Part shown: piece after piece, positions 3,418 through 43,063 of the stretch | Layout of the letters: each line of letters begins with the position of its first letter | Numbering within the stretch: position 1 is the first letter of the stretch | From: Cymodocea nodosa | Lineage: Eukaryota > Streptophyta > Magnoliopsida > Alismatales > Cymodoceaceae | Direction: 5' to 3' | Length of the DNA: 64,000 bases | Assembly (NCBI GenBank): GCA_036874045.1 | Contig: CM072337.1 | Location: forward strand, 21,364,001 to 21,428,000 | Translations under genes and position numbers: made by a program | Notes under the pieces: model-generated | The model's database searches: none | What the model saw: only the letters and a program-made list of their open reading frames with translations | Told to the model about the DNA's origin: nothing

Positions 3418-4125
3418 TCACATTACACCCCAGGACTCTAGCGTCGGGAAGCACGGGAAGGAAGCAGCTGCAGCATCGAAATCGAAGTGCCCAACCCCGG
3501 CATCCACCACCGGAAACATCTGCTGGTTCTTCTGCTGCTGCTGCTGCTGCTGATGCTCCATTACCGTCGGGGGAGGGCCCTCACGGCCAAGAAGAAACGC
3601 CGACGTGTCCAACGTCGGCAAGCAACTTTGCGGAATTACCACCCTACTACCGTTACTACCACCACCACAACCAACAGCAGACCTCTGGGGCGCCGGTTTC
3701 GTGAAATCGGTATCCACAGCGACGGCCTCGTCCCCGAGGCTCACCCCGGTGACCTGCTGCACCATCTGCCGGAAATTGGCGGGGTCTGCGGTGATAAACG
3801 TGGTGGGAGGCCTCTTGCTCACTCTCGACTTCCTCTTGGAGATCTTGCCGCTGGGTCCCGGCACCACGGCCGCCATCTTCTTCCTCGACCCGGAGTCGGA
3901 GTCGGAGGTGGGCTGCTCGTGCGTCAGGAAAGGGAGCGGCGACGGAGTGGGGGTTGGGGGATGGGAGGAAGAGTATTCCGGGGAGGAGCAGGAGGAGGCG
4001 ATGGACATCTGGAGCGCGCGCGTCATCATGTCGGTGTCCCGTGGGAAGGCGTCCGACATCCAGAGGCCTTCGGTGAAGGGCGGCCCGCGAAACCACGGCT
4101 CTAGGCTCGAGAGGTTCTCCGCCAT
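3418..4125 (-). CDS. VQ motif-containing protein, calmodulin-binding protein 25-like
   Basis: A single-exon gene for a 235-residue nuclear regulator. VQ proteins bind WRKY transcription factors, and the CaMBP25 subgroup also binds calmodulin and acts in osmotic-stress responses. The VQ motif FRQMVQQVTG is at residues 118-127 and matches the family pattern FxxxVQxxTG. The start MAENLSSLEPWFRG and the following SDAFPRDTDMMTRALQMS resemble the conserved N-terminus of the CaMBP25 group. A basic stretch (residues 94-107) precedes the VQ motif, a glutamine run is at 192-198, and the C-terminus FPTLESWGVM is typical of the family. The frame stays open upstream to 4428, but that part encodes a proline run from a CT-rich repeat. 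I chose the ATG at 4125 because homology begins exactly there. The CaMBP25 assignment is from remembered family features; the VQ call is firm. Confidence 0.88.
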   Translation of the reverse strand: MAENLSSLEPWFRGPPFTEGLWMSDAFPRDTDMMTRALQMSIASSCSSPEYSSSHPPTPTPSPLPFLTHEQPTSDSDSGSRKKMAAVVPGPSGKISKRKSRVSKRPPTTFITADPANFRQMVQQVTGVSLGDEAVAVDTDFTKPAPQRSAVGCGGGSNGSRVVIPQSCLPTLDTSAFLLGREGPPPTVMEHQQQQQQQKNQQMFPVVDAGVGHFDFDAAAASFPCFPTLESWGVM

Positions 4126-24394: not shown

Positions 24395-26260
24395 AATTAA
24401 ACCCCAAAGTCAAACAAACAAAACCGATCCATGTTTTGGCAGGATGCTAATTATATATATGTGTGTGTACCTGCCGACCTGCCTGAGTTTTTATTTTTCA
24501 AAAATTCTTTAGTTAATTATATACATCAATATAAAAAAAATAAAAAATTTAATTCACACATCTCCGTGTATAAAATGGTTTTACCCTTATTCTTTTCCTC
24601 CGGTATTTTCCCTCTCGCTTCTATTATTAATCTTACCTGAATGGTTATATATTGAATTAGGTAAGATCTTCTGCCTCAATCCTATTCCTGTCTTGCACTG
24701 CACCAAAAACATCAAGAACTCCGCTGGAATCATATTTGATCTGGTAAAAGTGTGAATCTTGGGGTTAACCACGATGTATCCATCATTCCATTAAGATGCG
24801 GAGACTTTGAATTAACAAGATTTAATGGCTCGGTTGATCAATAATAGTTACATGTATCGCATTTACTATAATTGGAATTTTGATGAACGTAAAAAATCTA
24901 TCATTATCAAAAAAGTAACACCACTATCGTAAGACATTATAATTCTTCTTCATAGTTCAGATGGGTGAGAAATTAAAAAAAAAAATTGTTCTAAGAAGAC
25001 CGGACCAAATCGAAGTCCTACAAAAATACAAACATAAAGCATAAAAAAGAGGTCAAACCTTGAGGCCGAGAACTTTGAACTAACAACTATACCAAATTAA
25101 TCAAAGATAATAGTACGTGCTTAAATGGCGAAGGTTTTGAATCGACTTAATTCTAACAAGATCGATCAGAAGATTATTTTTCTAATTTTTGCGTTCGCTA
25201 AGAATTAAACCTTCATAGAAGTTGCGATTGTACGTCATTGATTTTAATCAACTAAGGCATTAGAATTAGCCGTGAGTGCAATTCCTTTCGAAAGTTAGTT
25301 AGAATATCGAAGAATGAAAAGAAAAAAGCATTGGTAAAAACCTACGTTGTATTTTTTTCTTGGTTTTTGTTTTTGAGTGTTTTCTTTCTTCCTTTCCTTT
25401 GGTCTTGAATTTTGTTCGAATAATTATATTATCTCTAACTTTGCTGACTTTTCTAGTTGTATTTAACTTATTTAATTACCTGCTTTTCCGATAAAAAAAA
25501 GAAGAAGAAAAACTTCTGCTGAAAGAACGAAGACGTGAGGCACCCGACCCAAGTACGGGCACGTGCAAATAATTGATCAAAGTCGACCGCCGACGACGTG
25601 CGCCACCCATTTTAGGAAAAAAAAGGGAAAAGGGGGCAATCACCTCGATATAAGATAGCGTCCCATCAAAAGGCTAACGAGTCTCCATTTATGACATTGA
25701 TTAATTGACTAAGTATCGGTAATTAACGCCCATTAAAACATAGAACCGCGTTTTGCGTTTGATTCGGTCAAGGGCGTACTCCAAACCGGCTTGCTCCGGG
25801 TCCCCAGTTACCAAAGCCCGGGTTCGGGTTCGACTCCATTGTCGCCCGGCCCCGGTGATCAATGCTTCGTTTTTTTTTTTTTATATTCTTAACGAAGTTA
25901 GTTATATTTAATATTTCCACCCCGCTTTCCGAACAATAAAAAAAAGGGTGTCCCGTTTCACTTCTGTAGCCAACCTGTGCGTCGTATGCTGTCTCCTCCT
26001 GCCTAGCGCGTCTTGTGCACGTACAGCACCACCTCTTTTCTTTGGTTTCTCTAGTTGAATAATCACCTTTTGTTTTATCCTTCGAACAAGTATCCAAATG
26101 GCGACGGTGGATTTTTCTCCATCAACCCAAGCAGCCGTGTAGACCATTTCTAAACCACCACTGCTACACTTCATCCAAATCTTTATCTTTTTCCGTCGTC
26201 CAGAATCGGTGTTCTTCACTCACACCAACAATTTGTCCACGTTACCCTTTGATTTCCACC
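24395..26260. other. Intergenic, upstream of the NHL gene
   Basis: No gene was recognised. The last 700 bases are GC-richer and are presumably the NHL promoter; they include a TTGACT W-box-type core near 25706-25711 and a GACCGCCGAC stretch near 25585. The frames here on the minus strand overlap low-complexity promoter sequence and show no domains. Confidence 0.45.
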
Positions 26261-26267
26261 TATAAAA
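26261..26267 (+). promoter_or_regulatory. TATA box candidate of the NHL gene
   Basis: TATAAAA at 26261-26267, preceded by a C-rich ttccacc, lies 48 bases before the ATG at 26309. A start 25-32 bases downstream would give a very short leader of about 10-20 bases, so an upstream start is also possible. Confidence 0.5.
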
Positions 26268-26308
26268 AATCCAGCACACACCAGCCAAAGGCTGCCACCA
26301 CCTTCACG

Positions 26309-27115
26309 ATGTCGGAGAAGGTCGATTATGGCGCCCGAGAGCTCTGGGACAAGGAGACCGTCGCTTCTGCTTCTACGCCGCCACCAGAGGAGACGAAACC
26401 AATCCTCCCGCCCCCCAACTACGTCATCCAGATCCCCAAGGACCAGATCTACCGCATCCCACCGCCAGAGAACGCCCACAAGTATAAGCTCTACACTCGC
26501 CGCGCCGAGCGGCGCCGCCGCAGCCGACCCTGTTGCCGCTTCCTACTCTGGTTCATAGCCGCAATCCTCTTCCTCGCCGTCGCCGTGGGGATCACCGCGG
26601 GAGTGCTCTACCTCGTGTTCCGCCCCAAGCTCCCTTCCTACTCCATCGAATCCCTCGCCGTCTCGGGCCTTAACCTCTCCACTCTTGGCAACATCTTCTC
26701 CCCAGAAATCGACGTCGCGGTGAGAGCCGAGAACCCGAACCATAAGATCGGGATCTACTACAAGGACAAGAGCTCCATCCGCGCGTTCTACTCCGACCTG
26801 GAGCTCTGCAGCGGGAAGTGGCCGACGTTCTACCACGGGAGGAGGAACACGACCGTGGTGCACGTCGCGTTGCTGGGGTCCCGAATCGAGCTGTCGAAGG
26901 CCGTGCGGGAGGAACTGGCGGCAGAAGAGAAGCGCGGGGCGGTGCGGCTCAGGATCCTCCTGCATGTTCCCGTTCGTTTCAAGTTCGGGGCGGCAACAAC
27001 TTGGACTCTCACCGTGAAAACCCGGTGCGAAGTGACGGTCGACAAATTGGGGAAGAAGGCTAAGATCAAAGATGGTTCCAAGTGCAAGGTCTACGAGGTG
27101 AAACCGTTCTCCTGA
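26309..27115 (+). CDS. NDR1/HIN1-like protein (NHL6/NHL13-like, LEA14-type domain)
   Basis: An intronless GC-rich gene for 268 residues. NHL proteins sit in the plasma membrane and act in defence and abiotic-stress signalling. Residues 1-60 form a Pro-rich cytosolic tail; 62-77 are strongly basic with a CC pair. One membrane segment spans about 79-104 (type II topology), followed by FRPKLPSYSIESL, the usual start of the outer LEA2-type domain. The family motif NPNHKIGIYY is at 142-151, a possible N-glycosylation site is in RRNTTVV, and a conserved Cys-containing C-terminus ends in KCKVYEVKPFS. I chose the ATG at 26309 because the frame further upstream has no ATG and includes the TATA box. 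It is closest to the NHL6-like group by the FRPKLP and NPN motifs; the exact orthologue is uncertain. Confidence 0.9.
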   Translation: MSEKVDYGARELWDKETVASASTPPPEETKPILPPPNYVIQIPKDQIYRIPPPENAHKYKLYTRRAERRRRSRPCCRFLLWFIAAILFLAVAVGITAGVLYLVFRPKLPSYSIESLAVSGLNLSTLGNIFSPEIDVAVRAENPNHKIGIYYKDKSSIRAFYSDLELCSGKWPTFYHGRRNTTVVHVALLGSRIELSKAVREELAAEEKRGAVRLRILLHVPVRFKFGAATTWTLTVKTRCEVTVDKLGKKAKIKDGSKCKVYEVKPFS

Positions 27116-29375
27116 TCGGCACACCAGACAAACCACAATGCCTTGATTCTTCTTTATTTCCTTGCTTGCGATCAAATTAATCGCAAATACACTTTTTGTA
27201 ATTTTTTTTTCCCTTTCGGCTTCTCAGATTTAATGCCGTAAGATCATTGACTTATGTATAGATGACAGGGCGCCAGACATACATGTATACTACGTACTTC
27301 GTGATGACGACGGATTGGCTTATTCTTCTTTTATTTCCCATAGACCCTGCTATATATGGTTCTGCCGATCCATCCGTCGACTATTATATTAACACCTGCA
27401 AGGACCTTATCATTTGGAGACATTCTCAAACCAAGTATAAAACGATTCAGGTTTAACATATATAAGAAAGCGTCGATGCACACTGAATACAGCAAGGCGT
27501 ATATATACATATATATACTAATGATGGCGACTTCTTCTTCTTCTTCTTCCCTACGAAGGAATAGTCAATGTCTTCTCGGGGTTTCCTTCGTCTCATCATG
27601 ATATTGAAAGCAAATTATCGAAAATGTAGCATCCCATCCTACTACAAATCTTGGTTTCAACGAGAAAATGTAACCAATCAAAGCAACAACATTCATAATT
27701 AACAGAAAAATATTGGGTTTACGTTGTGATCAGCACTCAGCAGGCATATCTAATTTACAAGAGAAAACTGATGTGCCCTTCCTTTGGTTTTTGGCTTTCG
27801 TCTTAAACTTTCTTTGATCCTTCCTTGTTTCTGTCATAAAGTTTCATTTTGTTGTTAAACTTGTTACGTGCACAACTTTACCTTTGCTGTAACTTTACAT
27901 TTATGATTTTTAATTTCAAATTTACTTTTACAGTGATAAATCAAAGTCAACGCATGTGAAAGAAGCAGCAAACGTGGAAAACGTAATTCCTGTTGTCTTC
28001 TCCTTCTTCTTTCTACAGATTGTTTCAGCTTCCGATAATCATGACGCTTGAAATTGATTAGATTCGTTGGAGGATGCAGACACCTTAATACACTCATCGT
28101 CAATATTTCCTGATTCAGTTTCTTAACCGTCGGAAGAAATAAAATTACCGTTATTTGTTAAGTATTGACTTTTACGTACCTAAATATGTATATATTGGTT
28201 AAAATTATTTGGGAGGGCCTTCACCTCGGCCAATTCCACGGTAGACTCCCCTTATTTAATCATTTCAAAGCCTGCGCATGATGACTCTTATTTAAAACAA
28301 CCAACAAATGAGAGATTAAAGTATTAAACCCTGATACGACTGATATTTGCGATGATGTGCTGGACCTGACACGTTCTTAAGACACAAATTTCTTGTGGCA
28401 CAGAACCACGCGCTTTTTTTCACAATTGATAATACTTTGAAGAAGAGTGTACAGATGAATTGGTAATACTTTGAAGAAGAGTGTACGGATGCCACTCGTT
28501 ACTAATCGATTAGTTCATTGCAGTTGGATAGTCGATTTCAATGGCGTCAGAGTTTAATTGGTCACGAAAGTTTTTTTTTTTTTTGAAAAAAAAAAAAGAT
28601 GAACGAGAAAGACGAAATACTTACCTTGTGGTTGGAGTTCTCCAGTTAAGATCGTTACTTGTTTGGTATCTAATTTACCTCGCAAAAAAGAAAGACGAAA
28701 TACGTAGAGAGAGGAGAATTAATATATAATAACGGTAACAATTGAAATCATTTATATCAGTAAACATTCGGTCTTTTATTTAATAATAATAATAAAGAAG
28801 CTGCATACACCTTTAAAGGCTAGTAATTTCTTATATGACTGACTTCTCCAACCCAATAACATTACTTGCGCACCCATTGTTTAATCAGTTCCAATAATCT
28901 TGGGTGATTTTTCATCTAGCTATTAACCTTCTTGCATGTGCTATCGTTTTTCACCGATCAACCTCGTCCAAGTCCTAAATCCTAATAAGAGGAAACACTA
29001 GATTTCTTCCTCACGCCCCTCCACCATTAATCTTCTTAACAAATCAAGCCATGAAGTTATATCACAGATCTAGGTGGCTAGTTTGAACAATGTGAGCAGG
29101 TTCTCCTCTTCCTCTCAGCACTTATCTGAGATTATTCCTGTATCATTTGTGACCGTAATAAAACGTGTTCGTGTTAATTCGGTGATTAAAAAATCACACA
29201 ATAAAGGATTCTTAAAGTGAAGCAGAAAAAGAAACAAGCATTTCATACGAACAACTACAAAAATTTAATTAATCAAAGATGACGGTGCTTAAAATTTCTT
29301 TTAAAATTAAACCTTAAAAACGTAAAAATATTACTATTATTAAAAATAATTTTTTCATGGTATAGAATTTTACAA

Positions 29376-29406
<31 letters not shown>

Positions 29407-30039
29407 TTTAAGATCTTTACACCGAAATTTAAATCTTAATACAAATAATACCGTCATGAGTTGAATGTAAGAATGATTTAAACATGACGAAAAGTCAGTC
29501 CGTGGAACTTCGCTTGACGGCCTATCAATCACCCTTCGGAAAGCTTCGTCGCCCGATGTCCTGCAACCCTTCGGAAAGCTTCATTGCCCAACGCAGCACA
29601 AGATCCAACCGCCCGCGACACCCTTCGATCCAATCACCCTTGTCACCTTCCCTTGGTGATCTTTATCTTCTCTCAATTTTTGGCTTGTGTTCGACGACGT
29701 ATTTCACACCTTGCATTCATCCATGTTATATACACCACATTGAATAAAATACATGGAGATTTATGCACATTACTCTCATACTCTGATTATGCTCTGCAAT
29801 TTTAAGTTGTAGCCTGCACGGTGAGAAACGGTAGCTGTTCTGAAGCAAATAATTACCTTCCTCTATGGCTAAAAACATTAAGCAGAGCGGAGCTTAACGA
29901 AAATAGTGAACATGACACAGATATATGCAAAATGCTGGTGCCACACGATCAGGGACTACGATACTCCGGACGCTCACGGATAGGGTAGTCGTACTGCTCC
30001 TGTTTCTCTTCTTTCGACAGGATTCAACGTTACTTTGTT
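27116..30039. other. Intergenic, no gene recognised
   Basis: Begins with the NHL 3' untranslated region. It contains a short (CTT)n run near 27528-27549 and a duplicated 27-base phrase around aatactttgaagaagagtgta near 28430 and 28465. An (AAT)n microsatellite lies at 29375-29406. Two copies of cccttcggaaagcttc(a/g)t lie near 29530 and 29568. Short frames here show no domains. The left end of the copia element beginning near 30040 could not be placed. Confidence 0.5.
29375..29406. repeat. (AAT)n microsatellite
   Basis: About ten uninterrupted taa/aat units in AT-rich intergenic DNA. Confidence 0.9.
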
Positions 30040-33000
30040 TTTTCTCACTCCTATGCAAAAGTCGACATACTCAAAGTTTTGTCTATTCATGAGTTGATGC
30101 ACATTGTCGACGACCACATTCCGCCAACAAAGGAGGGTGAAGCACCTTCTCTCGATTGCTTTGGCTGGTCATGCACTGACCATTTGGTCCTAAGTTGGAT
30201 AAAGGCCACTATTCATCCATCCGTTCAAATGATCTCGTCTGCCACGACACAAGAGGCATGGTCGCTGCTAACTAAATGTCTGTCAGTCGTCTCTAAAACT
30301 TACATTCGCACATAGAGAGATCAACTTCATGCACTTAAGAAGATAGACTCTCAATCAATAGCGGACTACCTTCTCTCTACCAAACACATTGTCAAACCAA
30401 TGGAGTCTGCTGATACAGCAATCTTGGACTCAGATCTTATCAAGTTCATCACCGACGGACTCAAGTGAAGAGTATAAAGGCTTTCTTACGTCTCTTCACT
30501 TTAACTCGTCCATTGAGTTGGACGAGTTTTATGACCTCTTGCTCCAAGAGGAATATTTGATAAAGTGTATTGTTGTTCCAAGTGCTTTTGCTATCACTTC
30601 TCGGTCCGTTTCTAGGTCTCAATCATCGGACAACCAAGGCCAAGGAAGTCGTCATAGTGGTGGCCGTTCCAGACATCGTGATGGTCAATTTCCAAATCAG
30701 GATCGTGGACATTAGTGGACGCCAACGTATATTGTTTCAGCATCCATTGCTACGCATGTGTCATGCCAAATTTGTAATCGCATGAGACATACAGCACACA
30801 CATGTCATGAGCGGTGGAATTTTGCATACAATGCTATGTTGTCCATCAATTTGGTCACATGACCATGCATAATCCAGACTAATGCAACAGATCATATGAT
30901 GCCACAATTTCATCAAATGCAATCAGTTGAGCCGTACACAGGTAATAAAGTGGTAATAGCCAGGCTCTTCCTATCAAGCATGTTGGGTCGTCTTCTCTTT
31001 CAAACAATCTTCATCTTTGTAATATCCTTCATGTTCCAGATCTTGCACAAAACTTACTTTCAATTCATAAGTTTGCAAAAGATAATCAATGTTATTTTCA
31101 TCTTGATGACAATGGTTTCTCCATAAAGGACAAGGTGACCCATCACACACTTCTTAGTGGCCCAAGCAACAATAGCACCTATCGAGTTACCGCTCACAGT
31201 GCATTCTCTGCTTGTTCATGTTCATCATTATGGCATTGTCAGTTGGGGCATTCCTCCCTTCCATATCTCCACTCAACTCTTCGTCGCGTCAGCCTCCATC
31301 TTCGTTCATCGTCATCATCATGTCGTGTGTGCCCTCTTGGTAAGGCACACAAGTTGCCTTTTTCTCGTAGTCTAACCACCGCCGTCGAACCTCTTACACT
31401 ACTCTAACTTGATGTATGGGGTCCGACCCCAGTCGTGATGTCTAGTTTCCGTTATTATTTATCAATCATGGATTCATATTCATGTTACACCTGGTTGTAT
31501 CCTCTCATTAATAAATCGGATGCATTCGTTTGTTTCAAAAATTTTGCTACCATGGTTGAAAATCTCTTTTCAAAAATCGTTAAAATTATTCGAATTTTCA
31601 AAATCTTTCCTTTCGAGAGTTTACAAATTTTAAGGGTATTGTCCACAGATTTTCTTTCCCTTACACGTCATCCCAAAATGGTATCGTTGAATGAAAACAC
31701 CGCTACCTCACTAACGTTGGGCATTGCCTCTTGTTCACAACTGGCATCTCTCTTATTTATTGGTTCTATGCCTTCCAAACCACTTGTTTCCTTATAAATT
31801 GTATTTCTTCATTGGCAAGTCCCTCTCCTTATAAACTTCTTTTTGGTAATCCACCTGATCTTTCCTAATTAAAGGTATTTAGGGGTTCCACACCAACCAT
31901 CATCAAACAAATTAACCCCACAATCTCTTCCTTGTGCCATTTTAGGATATCCGTTACATCACAAATGATATTATTGCCTTGACCTCTCAAATCGCAAGAT
32001 TCTAATATCCAGGCATATTCTCTTTCATGAAAATAATTTTCCATTTAAAGAGAGTGATCTTACTTCAACGGAAAATTCCTTATTAAATTTATTCAATTCT
32101 CCATCTTACATGCCATTACAACCTCTTGTTGCTCCTCTTTCCATGGCGGATACACTATCATCACCCACCTCTCCTTTAAATCTTCATCCTTTTGTGGCTC
32201 AGTCTCCTAGTCAATCAACTCCTCCTTGCCTATGCCATTTATCATCACCATACCGTGATATCTCTCCAGTCTCGATTGCACTTACAGCTTCTACATTGAC
32301 ACCTGTTGAAATGATGCAGGAGGTGTCCGTTTCTTTTGCTCAAGTTTGCCGCTTACATCAATGGCAACAAGTCGTAGAAATGAAGTTTCATGCTATTCAA
32401 CAAAATGGGGCATGGGACCTTGTCCCTCCACCAACAAATTGTCCCATTGTCGGCACAAGGTGGGTATACAAGGTGAAGCGTCGTGCCAATGGTATCATCA
32501 AGCAACATAAGGCTCATCTTATGGCACAAGGATACGCACAACGCCACGACATTGACTTTTGTGAGACATTTAATTTAGTTGTAAAGCACAACATAATCTG
32601 GATCATCTTGTCACTTACTGCTATGTTCTAGTGGGAATTTCACCAACTGAATTTGAAGAATGTCTTTTTTAATGACTATCTTTAGGACGAGGTTTACGTT
32701 AAGCAACCATTGGGATTTGTTCATTCTAGATTTCCCAATCATGTGTGCCAGCTATGCAAGGCTCTCTATAGTCTTCAACAATGTCCACGTGCATGGTATG
32801 AGTGTCTACAGTCTTTTCTAACATCTATTGGTTTTTGCACTAGTCTTGTAGATTCGTCTTTGTACATTTGGTGCTTTGGACCACATGTCATTCTTGTCTT
32901 GGTCCATGTGGATGACATCGTTGTCACTGATTCTCATTGTCCCTCCATGAATACATTTATGGAGTCACTTGAGCGCACATTTGATTATCGTCAACTTGGA

Positions 33001-33582
33001 TGCTTGGAACATTTCATTGGCTTGCAATTTGCTTATACCGGTTCAACTATTCATTTAATACAAATCAAGTACATCGTTGATCTTCTACATCGCAGAAGGA
33101 TGTCCAATTAGTGGCAACACCATTGGAAGGAGGAGTACACTCGCAACCACAAGATGGTGATCCTCTTGACAATATCACAACTTATTGGTGTATGGTTGGT
33201 GGATTATAATACCTCACGCTGTCACAATTAGATTTGGCTTACGTCGTTCATCATCTTTCTCAGTTCCTACAAGCTCCAACGACGATGCATCTTCAGGTAG
33301 TGAAACGTATTTTGTATTATGTCAAAGGAGCATTGAATATGAGACTATTTTCCGAGCATCTTCTCCGACGCTCACAACCTATTCAAATGTCGATTGGACT
33401 GGTGATCTCAATGATCGTCAGTCTATCATAGGTACCTGCCTATTCATTGGAGCAAATCTTGTTTCGTGGACTTCGCGCAAACAACTAACTGTTTTGCACG
33501 CCAAGTATAGAGTCAAAGTACCGTGCACTTGCTTCCGCTTCCTTTGATATTCTTTGATTTTGTTATTTACTCTATGAACTTA
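30040..33582 (+). pseudogene. Ty1/copia retrotransposon, gag-pol remnant, left part
   Basis: Gag-like sequence lies at 30079-30480. The pre-integrase/integrase zinc region (LWHCQLGH, then CPLGKAHKLPF) is at about 31230-31360 and the integrase core (VWGPTPV, YYLSIMD) from about 31410. Reverse transcriptase is at about 32390-33100, with GTRWVYKVKRRANG and the catalytic VHVDD at 32902-32916, and RNase H at about 33380-33582. The domain order is that of Ty1/copia. Stops and frame shifts occur throughout, for example at 32629-32631 and within RNase H at about 33510, so it cannot encode a polyprotein. The Harbinger element at 33583 interrupts RNase H; the rest resumes at 37598. LTRs were not identified. 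Confidence 0.85.
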
Positions 33583-33779
33583 GGGGGGATTAGTGTCTAA
33601 TGAAATTCAACTGACGTAAAGGAAAATCGTTGAATTTCGTTATAATGTAGTTAGTGTGCACAATATTGAAGGAAAAGGAAAACGTAAATTTACCGACATA
33701 TAAATATGTAATTTTACCTTTACTCTTCCCTCATTTCCGACCTACCATGTTCTAGAAATTTTTCACCCTTACATCCTCC

Positions 33780-34135
33780 TCGTCGCTCGCATCTATCGTT
33801 CGCATCTGTCGTTGCCCGCATCCGTCGCTCTTCGCCCCTCCTCACGCTTGCAACGATCGCATCCGTCGCGACCGCTTGCAGCGGAAGCTCGTAGCCCCTA
33901 CATCCAAAGCTCGCAGCGCGTGCATCCGTCACAACCGCATCCGAAGCTCACAGCCTTCGCGTCTGTCACGACCGCTCTCAACCGTTGCAGTCATCGCTCA
34001 CGGTCGCTGTTGCCGCATCCATCGCTGCCACTGCATCCACCGCTGCCGCCGCATCCGAAGCATGCAGCCCCCGCATCCATCGCTACCGCTACCGCCGCAT
34101 TCGCTGCGACCACTGCCATTGCTGACGCTCAGTTT
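33780..34135. repeat. GC-rich degenerate repeat block inside the Harbinger element
   Basis: Irregular units built on ccgcatccgtcgc / ccgcatccatcgct recur many times in an element that is otherwise AT-rich. Long frames on both strands (33720-33932 minus, 33812-34214 plus) follow from the repeat and show no domain. Confidence 0.6.
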
Positions 34136-34374
34136 GTGCCTCTGTAAATTCTGTTTGAAATTCTGTTTTAAATTCTGTTTTCATCGTATGTATTTGTTTG
34201 TTAGTATAATGTAATGTATGTTTTCATCGTATGCATTTGTTTGTTAGTATAATGTTTGTTAGTATAATGTCGTTGATACTGAATGCTTTGTTCAATCTGC
34301 CGTTGATAGCTCTTTGTCTTGATACTGAATGTTTTGATCAATCTGCCGTTGATATTGAAATTATGTATTTGTTT

Positions 34375-34575
34375 TGATCAGTTGGTATGTTTTGATCCAC
34401 GAAAATGTGGTTATTGTAATTTAAGCAAATGTACTGAAATTATGTATTTGTTTGTTAGTATGTTTTGATCCACGAAAATGTGGTTATTGTAATTTAAGCA
34501 AATGTACTGAAATTATGTATTTGTTTGTTAGTATGTTTTGATCCACGAAAATGTGCTTATTGTAATTTAAGGATG
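34375..34575. repeat. 73-bp tandem repeat in the Harbinger left arm
   Basis: The phrase ttttgatccacgaaaatgtg recurs at 34390, 34463 and 34536, exactly 73 bases apart, with the intervening gttattgtaatttaagcaaa also repeated. This gives about 2.5 units. More diverged direct repeats (gttttcatcgtatg, caatctgccgttgata) precede it from 34150. Confidence 0.85.
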
Positions 34576-34763
34576 CTAAAAGTTGCATTGTTGTGTCATT
34601 TCGATATGGTTTGCTTTCATTTTCAAATATTGAGTAGATTGACAAAATATATTATGTTTTTGCAAATCTCATAATCTTCTGTCAGAGTAGTTAATTAATA
34701 TTTGATCTTATGTAGTAAATAAGTACTCTTGATAGAGGACGAGGTAATAGAGGATGAACTTAT

Positions 34764-35772
34764 ATGACTTGGAATGCTGATGCAGATGCATTCTTTTTAG
34801 ATATTTTGTCAGAAGTATTAAATGAGGGAAACAAAAAAACCCAAGATGGAAAGATAAAAGGGAGCACTTGGGATGAAGTAGTTGAAAAATACAATAATAG
34901 AAGGAATGCATGTATTACAAAGAAGAATGTGGAAAGTCGCTTAAAGACATGGAGACAAATTTATCATAACTACTCAAAAATTGCAAATCAGAGTGGATGA
35001 GGATGAAATTTCATACAAGGGTATACTGACATTGATGAAGAGATATGGAAAGAGTTTATTAAGGTAAGATTTTTATTTACATACTTTAATATTATCCCAA
35101 TTGTATTGAATTTTTCTTAATATATATTGTAATTTTATGTAGGTACATCTAGAGTGTGAAAGCTGCAAGGGAAAACCATGTTTGATTTATGAACAATTAC
35201 AACTCATTTTTAAAGGTACTATGGCTAGTAGAAATATGTCTAGACAGGCAGAAGAAGTAAATATTGTATCAAACACTCAAGTTCTAAATACATTTACTCC
35301 AGACATTACACAAGATGGAATAGACCTAAATTTTGACATACCTCCTAGTTCAGGAGGAAGTGCAAATGTTCCATTGGAGTAGAGGAGAAAGGGGAAGCGA
35401 GCACGCCCTCATGCAGAATCTGTTCAAATGATAGCAGAATGTTTGAAAGATACGTCACGAGCTTTTCTTACTTTGTGTGAACAAGATACTATTAATGGTG
35501 AGGTATGTAATGAACAAATGAGAGAGATGTTTAGCATACAAAAGTAGATGTTTGCATGGAAGAAGGAAATGTTTGCATAGCAAAAGAAGTCTGAGTCTTT
35601 TTTAGATGAAGTTATTACAGCAATATTTGAGATTGAAGATCTATCTATGACTGATCGATATAAAGCTACTCAATTATTCCAAAAGCAAGAAATCAGTAAA
35701 ATATTTCTATCAATTCCAAAAGAAATGCGACAAGGATGGTTGAAGTTTCACTTAAAAAAGATGGAAGACTAA
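34764..35772 (+). pseudogene. Harbinger ORF1, Myb/SANT-like DNA-binding protein
   Basis: Starts MTWNADADAFFLDILSEV and continues with STWDEVVEKYN and NVESRLKTWRQIY, the Myb/SANT-like domain (Myb_DNA-bind_3) of Harbinger ORF1 and of domesticated plant homologues. An intron is likely at 35066-35142 (gtaagattt to tatgtag). The downstream part has the usual acidic and Gln-rich linker and ends in PKEMRQGWLKFHLKKMED. In-frame stops lie near 34998, 35380, 35546 and 35578, so the reading is broken. In intact elements this protein binds the nuclease and helps it reach the element ends. Confidence 0.8.
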
Positions 35773-35976
35773 AGATGATTTACATGTTTTTTTTTTGTAT
35801 TAGATGTATGATGTAACTAATTTTTGTTTGGACAAGGAAATGTGAAATGATATTATTATTGATGTTTGTTTATCATATTTTGTTATGTTATATTAATTGT
35901 GGAATGATTTCATGTAGTATGTTTATTTGTATTACAACCTTGTAATATATTTGAACATGAAATTTTGTAGGTGACA

Positions 35977-37377
35977 ATGAATTTTGAAGAAGATTTTGAC
36001 GAACTAGTAAATAACACATTGATGTTATTTGAAGAAGAGGAAGAACATGCTAGAAGAAGGCGAAGACGTTTACTTGCTTTTTGAAATATTTTAGCAGGGA
36101 TTGCAAGTACGTCAACTTTATTTTCAAGTACAAGTCGTATTTATAGTAAAGAATGTGCAGATTATATAAAAAGATTACTAGATCCTTCTTTACCACATCA
36201 AGTTTACAATTGTTGAAAGATTTATAGAATGAGTCAAAGTGTTGTCAAGGGTTTTTGTGAATTAATGAGGAGGAAAGAAGTCCTGAAAGATACCAACAAT
36301 ATCAGTGTAGAAGAGAAGTTTGCCATGTTCCTTGTGACAATTGGGCAAAATCAAAGATATGGAGTAACTACTGAACGATTTAGTCGATCAAGTTGGACAG
36401 TTAGTAAATACTTTAATGAAGTCTTGAATGCTGTATTACAACTAAATCATGTTCTTCTAGCAAGACCTTCATCTGAAACACCAAGTCGAATTCGTCAAGA
36501 CTCAAATGTGTACCCATATTTTAAGGTACATTTCCACACCTTTGTAGTTTCCTTATCTTTAATGTTATTTTAGTCAATATCAAAATAAAAATGCATGTTT
36601 ATAGGATTGTATTGGAGCTATTGATGATGCACATATCAAAGCAACTATTTATGGACAAGAAACAGCAAGATTTAGGAATATTAAAGGTGAATTATCTCAA
36701 AATGTAATGGCAGCATGTAATTTTGATATGGAATTTACATATATTTTAGCTGGTTGGGAAGGATCAGCTGCTGATGCTGATATTCTCCAAGATGTAGTTA
36801 CTAGACCTAATGGTTTTCAAGTTCTACAAGGTAAATGTGTTTTTCACTTCTACAAGTTATGAAAACATCACCATACTAATATTTTTTTAATACAGGTAAG
36901 TTTTACTTAGTTGATGTTGGATATCCAAATCGACCAGAATATATTTGTCCATATCGAGGTGTAAGATATCATCTATCTGATTATGTTAATGACATAGTTC
37001 CTCGTAATGCTATAGAAAATTTCAACTACAGACATTCACAATTGAGAATAGTCATTGAACGTACATTTGGAGTTGTGAAACATTGATTCTCAATATTACG
37101 TGGTCAAATGCCATATCCATATGAAACACAAGTGAATATTGTCATCGCATGTTTTTTGCTTCATAATTTTATTCGTAAGACTAATAAGGAAGATTTACTT
37201 GAGGACCTGTTAGATGAGTTGGAAGAGTTAAATATTATTGATGATATACAACCAATAGGAGAGATACATATAAAAAGCAATGTTCAGGTTCGAATGACTC
37301 AAAAACAAAGAAAAGAAATGACAGATAAGATGCGAGAAGATATGATAATGGCAATGTGGGATGGAAGAACTAGATGA
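35977..37377 (+). pseudogene. Harbinger ORF2, DDE nuclease (transposase)
   Basis: A three-exon reading: 35977-36525, 36605-36830 and 36896-37377, with introns of 79 and 65 bases that have GT-AG borders. The DDE_Tnp_4 core is recognisable: first aspartate in CIGAIDDAHI, second in GSAADADIL, glutamate in VIERTFGVVK. All three catalytic acids are kept, although GAIDG and GSAHD are the more usual contexts. Three in-frame TGA codons (near 36082, 36215 and 37084) break it; apart from these the frame is open. It ends with TDKMREDMIMAMWDGRTR. The few lesions suggest fairly recent loss of activity. Confidence 0.85.
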
Positions 37378-37597
37378 TATTATTTAGTATTATAATATTT
37401 CAATTAAGATATATTTGTATTTTCCGAATATTAGTTGTAATAAACTTTTGTCAAAATTTCCATCAGAATTTTCCGTCCTGCACTAAACCCCTCTCAGAAT
37501 TTTTCTTTTCCTTTACGTTACAAATTTTCTATTTTCTTTCCGTCAGAATTTTAATTTTACTTTTCGTCAAAATTTTCCTTCATGCACTAACATACCC

Positions 37598-37825
37598 TTA
37601 GTATTCCTCTTAGCAAAACTCCAATCATATACTGTGACACATGTTATTATTGGGTCGTATTTCCTTTTGTTCTTTTGGTATGCGATGTAGTATACTTATT
37701 GTTGTAATTACTTTCGTACCTATTCTTGTATATTGTATTTTATATAATAATATAAAGATTGACGAGAAGGTCAATCATTTTTCATTGTCTTGTGAAAACT
37801 TACCGGAGAAGAGGAGACCTTGATG
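37598..37825 (+). pseudogene. Ty1/copia remnant, right part (end of RNase H)
   Basis: Immediately after the right copy of TTA, the sequence continues the interrupted RNase H domain of the copia element in the expected frame, including the conserved I-Y-C-D stretch of that domain. Similarity decays after about 37720, and a purine-rich run is seen near 37805-37817. No 3' LTR was recognised. Confidence 0.7.
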
Positions 37826-38751
37826 GTGTTTAGGACTACTGCATTTCATTTATGTGAAGTTGCTTGGTAACTTCAGAAGTGCTCGAGATGAACTTATGAT
37901 TAATGTTATATTATTAAATTTACTTGCCACCTTTTGCATTCCTAATGCTTATCTGTACAAAACTTTCTTATTACTCTTTTGTTCTTTAATGCCTTTATCT
38001 GCACGAATAGCTTCCTGTGTATCAATAACAATCGGCAAAATTTCAGACTAGTTTGTGTGAGGAGGATTCTAGATTTTTCTTCGTTAGTTTGTGTATAAGC
38101 TTCCAGCAATTATATAGGGTTGCATTTATATCAGGAAACACAATATGTTAATATAATACGTTAATTTGTTAACGAATCATTTCCTGCTGAATAAATCGAA
38201 AAATAATGGGTTAATTATTTTTTTTAGGAAGGGCTGCCTTTATTCTCATTTTAAATTTTGATTTATTTGTACTTGTATGTGATACCTACGACTTTATTGT
38301 AATATTTGTATGTATTATGTAATTTGACAAATTTTATGACTTTAGGTGAAATTTTTTTTTTTTTTTTAATCTTTCAACTTTCATGCACAAATAACTTATT
38401 GTTTAACTTTCCGTGACTTACACAAAGATTTTTTTTTAAAAAAAAAATTTGTTCACAAACTTTCTTGATTTTTTATTTTGATTTTAAAAGGTTCTTGGTG
38501 AAAGTCTCGGCTTTCTTTGTTTTACTTTGCGAATTAACACGTGGTCTCATAAATTTCATGAGTCTGTTAAGCGGGTAGTTTGCTTCAAACATTCCACCGG
38601 AGCTCCGCTTTCATTTACCTACCCTTCTCTCCCTTGACGGCTTGACCCGCCTCTTCCAACCCATCACGTCTCTCCCACCTAACACAAACAGCTTCCTTCG
38701 CCTTACCCACACCGGGCGACGAGGTCCTCTCCTTCCTTCCGAACGCTAGCC
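37826..38751 (+). other. Spacer and promoter of the steroid-binding protein gene
   Basis: AT-rich with T homopolymers near 38351 and 38428; it turns GC-rich from about 38590. The last 150 bases are a pyrimidine-rich stretch that probably contains the 5' untranslated region of the gene starting at 38752. No coding region seen. Confidence 0.5.
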
Positions 38752-40145
38752 ATGGCGCTGCTCTCCACCTTCACAGATGCAATCGGCGCCTACACTGGCC
38801 TATCCCCGGCCGCCGCCTTCACCATCCTCGCACTCATGATCGCTGTCTACCGTCTCGTCTCGGGGATGTTTGTCTCGCCCGAGGCCGAAGCGCTCAAGGC
38901 TTCCCGCGTGCCACCTCCCGAATCTTTCGCTCCCCCGCCGGAGCCCGTCCACATCGGGGACATGACGCTGGAGGAGCTGCGGGCCTACGACGGCTCCGAT
39001 CTCAAGAGGCCGCTCCTCGTGGCCATCAAGGGCCAGGTCTACGACGTCACCAAATCGAGGTACTTGATGCTTTTAATGTATGTAAAGTGCATATATTTCA
39101 CACATCTATCATCTTAATGATATGTATTGGCAGATATAATTTGTAATATCCGTATCCATACTAACTTGAGTAGATATTGATTGATAATGCGTCATCTAAA
39201 TGATTTCATTTATGCATACAGAACAGATCTACTCCTAACCTACTCAAGGAGCTTGAACTATTCCAAAACTAATTATTCTTTGCGACATGGGAAATGTAAT
39301 TATCAGAAAACGGTAATGAGGAGCTCTCAAGAGTTCCATTTTACTTGGTCTTCATTCTTAGGCTGCCATGCTTGTGGTAAAATAAACAGAATCTTGCATA
39401 TTATGTGCAATACACCAGTCATTCTCCTATAAATAGAATGACAATCTGCATTCAACCATCAATCATCTTTTTGATAAACTTTATATATTCTGAAACAGCA
39501 GCCACATATGCCATATACAAGTTTATAACTATTATATCTTATTGCATGTGGAAACAATAGCAGTAAATTATTTTCAAGCAATACTTTCCCATGAAAAACT
39601 GGTAGTTCCATATTGTGCTGTCAGTTATTTTATGCTATTTCCCTTTATCATACGACAGTTTTTCTGTTGCAAATATGTTCTCTGGGTTTGTGGATCCATG
39701 TAATACAAAGGGTGTTTTTGTTATTGCACGTGTTATTTCTTTTTACAATAAATCGGATAGAGTTTCAGTTCACATTTCTCTTTTCCCATCAATCCTAGAT
39801 GTTGCCTTTTTTGGTTGAAATGGTACGCCAACCTCGACATCCCTTAATTTTTGCAATCATTTTCTTTGAAGGATGTTTTATGGGCCTGGTGGGATTTATT
39901 CTCTGTTTGCTGGGAGGGATGCTACCAGAGCTTTAGCTCTCATGTCGTTTAATCCAAATGACCTGACTAGTAACATCGAAGGGCTTGGTAGCGATGCACT
40001 TGAAGTTTTACAGGATTGGGAATACAAATTTATGGAAAAGTATGTTAAAGTTGGGCAAATTGTCAGCGAAAAATCCCCAAAGAATGATGGTGAAATAGAT
40101 AGCAAACAAGAGCCACAGGGAGGTGTAGTTGCAAATGTGGACTAA
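38752..40145 (+). CDS. MSBP1: Membrane steroid-binding protein (MAPR/MSBP family), two exons
   Basis: A membrane-associated progesterone-receptor-type protein with a cytochrome-b5-like fold that binds steroids or haem. In plants, MSBP1 regulates cell elongation and, in the endoplasmic reticulum, scaffolds monolignol P450 enzymes. Exons 38752-39059 and 39872-40145 join within an Arg codon (AG/G) with a GT-AG intron of 812 bases, giving 193 residues. The membrane anchor is at about 21-42. The cytochrome-b5-like domain starts MTLEELRAYDG (71-81), runs through VAIKGQVYDVTKSR and GPGGIYSLFAGRDATRALA, and ends near WEYKFMEKYVKVGQI, followed by a short charged tail. The family lacks the two axial histidines of true cytochrome b5, as here. 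It is slightly shorter than the usual 210-250 residues because the tail is short. The gene is intact. Confidence 0.92.
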
Positions 40146-43063
40146 TTGGAGCATCCACAGAAAAATAAGGTTAGATAATTTTCTTTTTGGAAAACCTTCA
40201 TCTTCAAATGCTATTTGTTTAACTAAAGCAGTTCAGAGAATGTTGAAGTTAGTCTAGATCCAAGGTAGCTGTCTTATTCTTCCTCAAGGTCTTCATTCAG
40301 GTCTTGCCTAGCTTGTATCCATTTCTTCCTTATTCTGCGTGCATATCAACAGTAATGTTAACTAATACTAATGACAGTAGTCTGGGCAACCTGTTACCCG
40401 ATAGGCCTTGTAAATAAAAGGTCGTACCAACTCTTTTTGTGCTTTTGTAATGACATCTAGTTGGAACGTTCCATAGTTCTGCCTCAGGTACTATTTGTTG
40501 TTGAACTTTGTCAAAATCTTGCAGATTTGTGTACAGTCCGTAAGTTTTATGTTAGTCTTGCACTTTCAGCTCCTAAGCTTATCTGGTTGATACAAAGATC
40601 AGTCATTAGATATTTTCAGTTCATTTAATATTATGGGTGGTGAAACGAAGATATACAAAAGATAATAATAATAATAATAAGGTATGATATAAAACCTATC
40701 ATAAATATAGAAATGAAAAAACTTTATAGCAGTATAAGTTAGCAAAAAAGAATGTTAAGAAAATTGTTAGTGAAATTAAAAATTAGGCTTATAATAATTA
40801 TATGAGAGTTTGAATACAAAATAAGCAAATAGTAGAGTATATAAATTGACTAAGGTTAGCGAAAGGAATCTAAATATTTGGGTCAAGTACATCAAGACAA
40901 AGTTGCTAGAGTTTTGGTAAAAAAATGAAATAAAAGATAGATGATATAGAGATGAATCTATCATGGAAAATTCTTACATGCAAAATTTGTATAGCAATAT
41001 AAAAGGTATAAATTATACTATTAAATTTGATGGCATTTCTATTAAAGTGTCGAAGTGCATGAGTGGTTATCTAAACTTTTTAATATAATTTTTTCAAATC
41101 CAAGCCCTCGCCCTCCTCTTCCAAAGAAGTTTAAATTAAAATTTTTGTCCAAAAAGTTTAGAAATTGGAATAAATCATCTAAAACTTTGGAATTATATTT
41201 ATTTTCAGGATGTATTTTGAACTTCAACTTTTGATAAAAGCAATCTGGTTTTATCAGTGTGCACGATGCCAGTAGTTTACTTGTACCATGTTTTTTATTT
41301 GACAATGGCAATGGGTTTACATAAATTTGATCTCAAGACATTTTTTACCTGTAAATCTTGTCGAATAGGGAAGGACCAACAGCACATGCATGTTTACATA
41401 TAACCGTACGGTGTTAAAGTCATCGAGATCTATCACTGATTGATAAACACTAGTTACATTATCTCATAAGATTTAAATCTTAGTACCTACGTCCTCTCTT
41501 TTTGCATTTTTTTTTTTGGACAATAAAGAAGTAGGGTAATTATACTATTTGCAGTTAGTTTACATTGAATTCAAAATTGTGAATTTAGTGACATCCCCTC
41601 ATCTGGTAATCATGTGACTTCTGGGAACCATCGGAGTTGAAGACCCTGCGTAGAGTTACATCTTTATTTTGAAAGGTTCTTTGTACGATAATGCTAGTAG
41701 TAGTTTATTTTCGGGGAGAATATCTAAAATTCAAATTTAGATAAAAATATTATCATTGTTTAAAAATTTCTATATTGGTTGCATGCTCTGTTCTTTGTGA
41801 GAAAAAAAGTTAAGAAAGAACGTAATTTGATGCATTTTAAACATTATCCAGCAGTTGCTAACTACTAATGGCTTTTGAAAACCTTGATATGAAGGTAGGT
41901 TGGTGAGAGATCATATTTTCCATTGTAGTTAATCTTTCACTTCACTGTAAGAGAAGAAATTTTTGGTTTAAATCTAAGCTTTAAGATGAATACCGTGAGG
42001 AAAGAGTAAATAAATTATTCCAACGCTCAAGACTTCTACTTTACAGATAACACTAATCAAACCATGGGCTGCTGATTTCTATCGATTTTTTTTTACCCGA
42101 CGGTAATGTTTTTGTCCACAAAACAATAAAAAGTCCCTATATGCTTTCCAGCATTGGTCACTTTGACCAAATAAATGTAATAATAGGTCACGATCCTTCT
42201 CCGAAAATTGTAAACTTTCTTGCGAGGATCTTCTGTCCGATGGTTTAGTAGTGATTTTGAAACTCTAATCATTTTTTTTATATGAAATTCAACCAAATGT
42301 GACTTAAACTCACATAAATAATACGGTAAAAAAAATTTACCATCGCCAAGATACACCTTCGGATATGCTTTTAAAACTCTAATTATGAAGTGACCACTTT
42401 TAGAACAAAAATTACTACCATGAAAGAAGGGTCAACTTAACAATATAAAATTTCCAAACTTAACTTGGATTCAAATGTTGAGTTAATGGCATTCCGTCTA
42501 GGACCCAGAAAACAGAATACGTGAAGTTTGTCAGATTCTTTGCTAAAATCAACCTTTATTAAGTATATTAAAATTTTTCAAGCTGACGAAACAGAAAGGT
42601 TGCAAAGAAGATGAAGTTACAGAGAATAGGCATATAGACTTTTAAACATCTCTTGTTCATTTATGTACAAATAGAGGTACAATAATATGCAGCATTATAA
42701 CCACCACATTACATTACACAGTTTTTGATACGTTAACTACCATTAGTTTAATAAAGCAAATGAAGAAAGCAGTTCAAATAGCTTTCGACCTTCATTAATA
42801 AACTAAACCACTAAAAGAACGAAAGCTTTTTAGAAGCCTTGACGTGAATCATCAAAAGAGTGGAGATTGGAGTTTCTAGATCTACAGCCTACATATGAAA
42901 TCGCGTGTGTTTTATACTGTGACGATCACTGGAGATGACCCATTGATATATGAAATACGTATAAATATAAGATCTTCTATGCAAAAGCGATCAGAAAAGT
43001 AAATGGCAGAAGCAACAAAATGGACAGCCCATCATCGCCATAGAAAAATAGATGACTTTATCC
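40146..43063. other. Spacer between convergent genes
   Basis: The 3' untranslated region of the steroid-binding gene (to about 40450) is followed by AT-rich DNA with an (AAT)n run near 40665-40680. No coding region was recognised; minus-strand frames at 40776-40964, 41042-41311 and 42093-42356 have no domain. The last few hundred bases are probably the 3' untranslated region of the dnaJ72-like gene on the minus strand. Confidence 0.5.

Follow-up and report, generated by a model that had tools for sequence, protein, structure and literature searches.

When a DNA transposon lies inside a retrotransposon, which of the two came first, and how exactly can the ends of the inner one be fixed? This question is raised by a locus of Cymodocea nodosa within a stretch of 64,000 nucleotides (assembly GCA_036874045.1, contig CM072337.1, positions 21,364,001 to 21,428,000), here termed the window. 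All coordinates refer to it. Nesting within retrotransposons is common in plants. At this locus, a PIF/Harbinger-type transposon (hereafter Harbinger) almost certainly moved into the RNase H part of an older copia element and duplicated the target TTA. The features of both elements are compiled in Table 1.

Table 1. Features of the nested Harbinger and copia elements in the window.
Feature	Position	Strand	Basis
Left part of host copia, ending within RNase H	29998..33582	+	75% identity to L005 over 3731 columns; RVT_2
Left target-site duplication TTA	33580..33582	+	sequence
DNA transposon of PIF/Harbinger type (4015 bp), a degenerate copy of an element with ORF1 and transposase	33583..37597	+	target-site duplication, ends, family copies, Pfam
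5' terminal inverted repeat region, starts GGGGGGATTAGTG	33583..33607	+	end comparison, family copies
Non-coding 5' stretch carrying tandem repeats (GC-rich units of 18 bp; 2.6 copies of a 73-bp unit)	33760..34590	+	
ORF1 first part, Myb/SANT-like DNA-binding domain	34761..34997	+	PF12776, Pfam
Remainder of ORF1, in-frame stops 35380, 35545, 35578	35143..35772	+	exon limits by eye
Transposase gene, exons ~35977-36525, 36605-36838, 36898-37377	35977..37377	+	DDE_Tnp_4; limits by eye
Subterminal repeat of terminal motif, ~107 bp inside 3' end	37471..37490	-	
3' terminal inverted repeat region	37573..37597	-	end comparison, family copies
Right target-site duplication TTA	37598..37600	+	sequence
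Copia RNase H continuation, shortened by ~225-bp deletion	37601..37638	+	alignment with relatives
Copia 3' LTR (right edge putative)	37633..37784	+	TG...CA; L004 similarity stops 37780

Ends of the transposon

Harbinger (4,015 bp) starts with GGGGGGATTAGTG and finishes with CACTAACATACCC, its first bases being GGGGGG and its last CCC. Since its own ends are alike at just 9 of the first 14 positions, the terminal inverted repeat (TIR) taken alone would be weak evidence for the ends. The 3' end, GGGTATGTT, agrees with the end motif G(N)5GTT as used in PMC2213677, and the 5' end, GGGGGGATT, has one mismatch to it (ATT for GTT). Between 29,000 and 41,000, 40,814 TTA/TTA pairs are spaced 500-9000 bp apart. 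The ends match at 9 or more of 14 positions in 231 of them, and among these 231 the pair 33580/37598 alone has GG at both ends.

Further copies were sought in the genome (374.6 Mb, 28 contigs). As 37 of 3,099 first-look candidates were scored, all counts are lower bounds: The family comprises at least 93 matching pieces and more than 30 matches longer than 2.5 kb. For comparison, 30 loci were returned, that of the window included. Among the 29 other copies, the 5' end was placed in 21 and left unplaced in eight (L019, L020, L023, L024, L028, L029, L031 and L034). Identical 3-bp duplications flank 18 of these 21 copies (10 TTA, 7 TAA, 1 CAA); some of the copy ends were extrapolated from the BLAST match by at most 5 bp. 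The alignments of L014 and L015 end at query position 3970, and the projected 3' end carries neither the motif nor a matching duplication. In L030, the flanking 3-bp bases differ. GTT occupies the motif positions in all 21 copies, and 16 of the 21 start with GGGGGGGTT, as judged by eye. The locus of L014 (G000:C17:8532523-8540082) contains two oppositely oriented Harbinger copies separated by about 110 bp, and beside this pair a 3'-end piece in reverse orientation.

The initial annotation had bounded the transposon at 33583-37597 by TTA duplications and GGG ends. These borders hold in two independent comparisons, with copia relatives that are contiguous at the site (see below) and with the family copies. 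For 33583 and 37597, the most compelling proof is that the family agrees at both termini; both ends are better fixed by the transposon's own copies than by the host copia.

The junction in the host copia

The flanks were joined without Harbinger and without one TTA copy and aligned to relatives from the same genome. With L002, 335 bp were aligned at 78.2% identity, with L003, 329 bp at 77.5%. Both alignments have three gap openings, none of them at the junction, and the closest gap is located 81 bp upstream of it. When the genome was searched with the portion of L002 that matches, eight matches were obtained, among them L002 itself, the locus of L003 and the window. Besides L002 and L003, the site is spanned by L038, L039, L041 and L043, whereas the eighth match, L042, adjoins L039 and stops short of it. 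In a multiple alignment, all six relatives run through the junction ungapped. Copies with contiguous flanks do exist in the family, as had been predicted, and neither the L002 and L003 alignments nor the multiple alignment shows an extra or missing base at the junction. In BLAST searches with the joined flanks, five of the six relatives cross the junction and reach 30 bp (L002, L003, L038 and L039) or 15 bp (L041) past it. L043 is not among them: It yields 12-bp and 22-bp matches only and is interrupted by a gap on each side of the junction (4 and 7 bp), so that its support is weak. In L041, two additional bases are present about 39 bp upstream of the junction. The relatives are paralogous copies, not an allelic empty site; the five aligned by BLAST differ by 18-31%. 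The 3' LTR of L002 includes a tandem duplication in direct orientation (its positions 1035-1242; period about 88 bp).

The initial annotation went further and proposed that the RNase H reading runs from the left into the right flank, the host thus giving independent proof of both ends. At the DNA level the flanks are indeed colinear, but the reading frame is broken. The frame reading YELSIPLSKTPIIYCDT across the junction meets a TGA stop at 33555-33557, a codon that reads W in L002 and L003 and lies eight codons upstream of the junction; 1-2 bp indels are found further upstream. The contiguous relatives do testify to the ends, but on the right the RNase H homology is only about 32-38 bp long and stops at ~37632-37638, where the 3' LTR starts. 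As the host frame is broken and the right-hand support is short, the proof lies in the colinearity of the DNA and not in an intact frame.

The short right flank also bears on a competing explanation, according to which the locus is a composite that arose by deletion or assembly error, the flanks stem from different copia copies and their contiguity is only apparent. It would fit that the right flank retains just ~34 bp of RNase H before the deletion joint at the LTR start. However, the bases of this flank align with six relatives, one of them weakly, and the junction is ungapped in these alignments. Chance alone would seldom give a TTA pair such ends (one of the 40,814 pairs has them), so that we consider a composite very improbable. 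The reverse order, in which Harbinger is the older element and the copia inserted around it or recombined with it, has practically no chance of being correct: Nothing was found in its favour beyond the circumstance that a target duplication of the copia cannot be checked without its 5' LTR, and Harbinger's own TTA duplications sit exactly where the six relatives run on, while its ends match those of 18 other copies with duplications. Since Harbinger is nested in the copia, the copia is the older of the two elements; the nesting bears out the proposed order of copia first and Harbinger later. The locus illustrates how insertions nested in one another reveal their order in time and fix the ends of elements.

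Condition of the host copia

The similarity of the window copia to L005 begins at 29998. RVT_2 was detected by Pfam in two pieces (E 7.2e-13 and 8.7e-25). The RNase H piece has no Pfam match and was therefore identified by the alignment with relatives together with typical motifs, on which its label, presumably RNase H, depends. Before the 3' LTR, the window copia lacks about 225 bp relative to L002 and 242 bp relative to L003. The missing stretch is complete in L002 and L003 and mostly present in L038 and L039. At the deletion joint (37633-37638), the sequence TGTGAC is shared. The deletion could be due to a template switch during reverse transcription or could have occurred later. The 3' LTR, which probably ends at 37784, has no match in 29,601-30,010 or in a self-comparison of 26,000-42,000, i.e. 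no 5' LTR was found there. An LTR-based age of the copia is not given because this partner was not found. The stop, the indels, the ~225-bp deletion and the 5' LTR that was not found make the window copia a relic and not an intact Ty1/copia member. About 1 kb downstream of the LTR, open frames start that extend over 38752-40145; we take them to resemble a membrane steroid-binding protein gene.

Coding capacity and age of Harbinger

The first part of ORF1 matches PF12776 (Myb_DNA-bind_3) with 41.2 bits versus a cut-off of 23.6 (E 3.3e-10). It ends at an in-frame stop at 34998, a position with a sense codon in 28 of the 29 other copies. Two of the downstream ORF1 stops, 35545 and 35578, are present in none of the 29. 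The transposase gene has premature stops at 36082, 36214 and 37084, positions at which sense codons occur in 26, 27 and 28 of the 29 others. Of four transposase pieces, one exceeds the Pfam cut-off for DDE_Tnp_4 (27.8 versus 24.8 bits, E 2.2e-6). The second piece reaches 20.0 bits (E 5.5e-4), below the curated cut-off, the third has no Pfam match, and the fourth has a sub-threshold Band_7 match only. The stops would render the proteins of both Harbinger and copia in the window non-functional. A weaker repeat of the terminal motif was seen by eye near 33651, inside the 5' end. The subterminal repeats of this motif might be binding sites of the ORF1 protein. Between 33760 and 34590, the identity of the matching pieces to other copies is mostly ~68-86%, compared with ~94-95% for the core that starts at 34607; the former region is fast-diverging.

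The window copy is 4.5-5.3% different from the others across the 3' 2,990 bp. Its terminal branch (0.036) is the longest of 30, the range across copies being 0.2% to 3.6%. In columns where at least 26 of the 29 others agree, it has 34 private changes, 21 of which are C>T or G>A. By these comparisons, the window insertion is among the oldest of the sampled copies, which were themselves picked by similarity to the window copy. An uninterrupted transposase frame, free of stops and of a net frame shift in its exons, is present in 7 of the 29 other copies. With its more than 30 long matches, its branches of 0.2%-3.6% and these seven frames, the family looks like a long-lived, perhaps recently active lineage.

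Target sequence and origin of the insertion site

At all 19 sites with matching duplications, the window included, the target is pyrimidine-TTA-purine when TAA sites are turned round to read TTA; one of them has CAA for TTA. In the window copia, the target is CTTAG. A literature search on the 9-bp target of maize PIF retrieved no paper. For PIF/Harbinger elements, PMC2836001 describes a target preference that reaches beyond three bases.

At the corresponding site, five of the six copia relatives have TTG and L041 has TCA; none has TTA. Because both duplications in the window read TTA and no relative does, a point change in this copia copy most simply predates the insertion and probably made the TTA. 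Harbinger, equipped with ORF1 and a DDE transposase, would then have inserted by cut-and-paste at CTTAG in the RNase H region and duplicated TTA on both sides. Both elements now carry stops. It is tempting, although we fall slightly short of favouring it, to attribute the new YTTAR target to the decay of a silenced retrotransposon by a change of the G-to-A type. If true, a dying retrotransposon may turn into a more favourable landing site the further its decay proceeds.

Comparison with known systems

The Ty1/copia character of the host is apparent from the order RVT_2, RNase H and 3' LTR, and a purine-rich stretch and a 3' LTR can be read in the relatives L004 and L005. In L005, TGGTATCAGA is presumably primer-site-like. 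In contrast to a typical Ty1/copia element, paired LTRs were not encountered, the 3' LTR is preceded by a deletion of about 225 bp, and the window copia carries stops and indels.

The transposon shares with the PIF/Harbinger elements of plants (maize PIF, rice Pong/Ping, Medicago MtMaster/MtPH) the 3-bp TTA/TAA duplication and the succession of a Myb/SANT-like ORF1 and a DDE_Tnp_4 transposase. Its short inverted ends start with GG, and the 3' end fits G(N)5GTT. According to PMC2836001, PIF/Harbinger elements require ORF1 and transposase and generate 3-bp duplications. Tandem-repeat regions are known in one Medicago family, too, as PMC2213677 describes. The window copy deviates from these elements by ATT instead of GTT at its 5' end, by a degenerate TIR and by premature stops. 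It belongs to PIF/Harbinger, the assignment being made at the superfamily level. Both elements are ordinary nested plant transposons, and nothing here represents a new kind of system.
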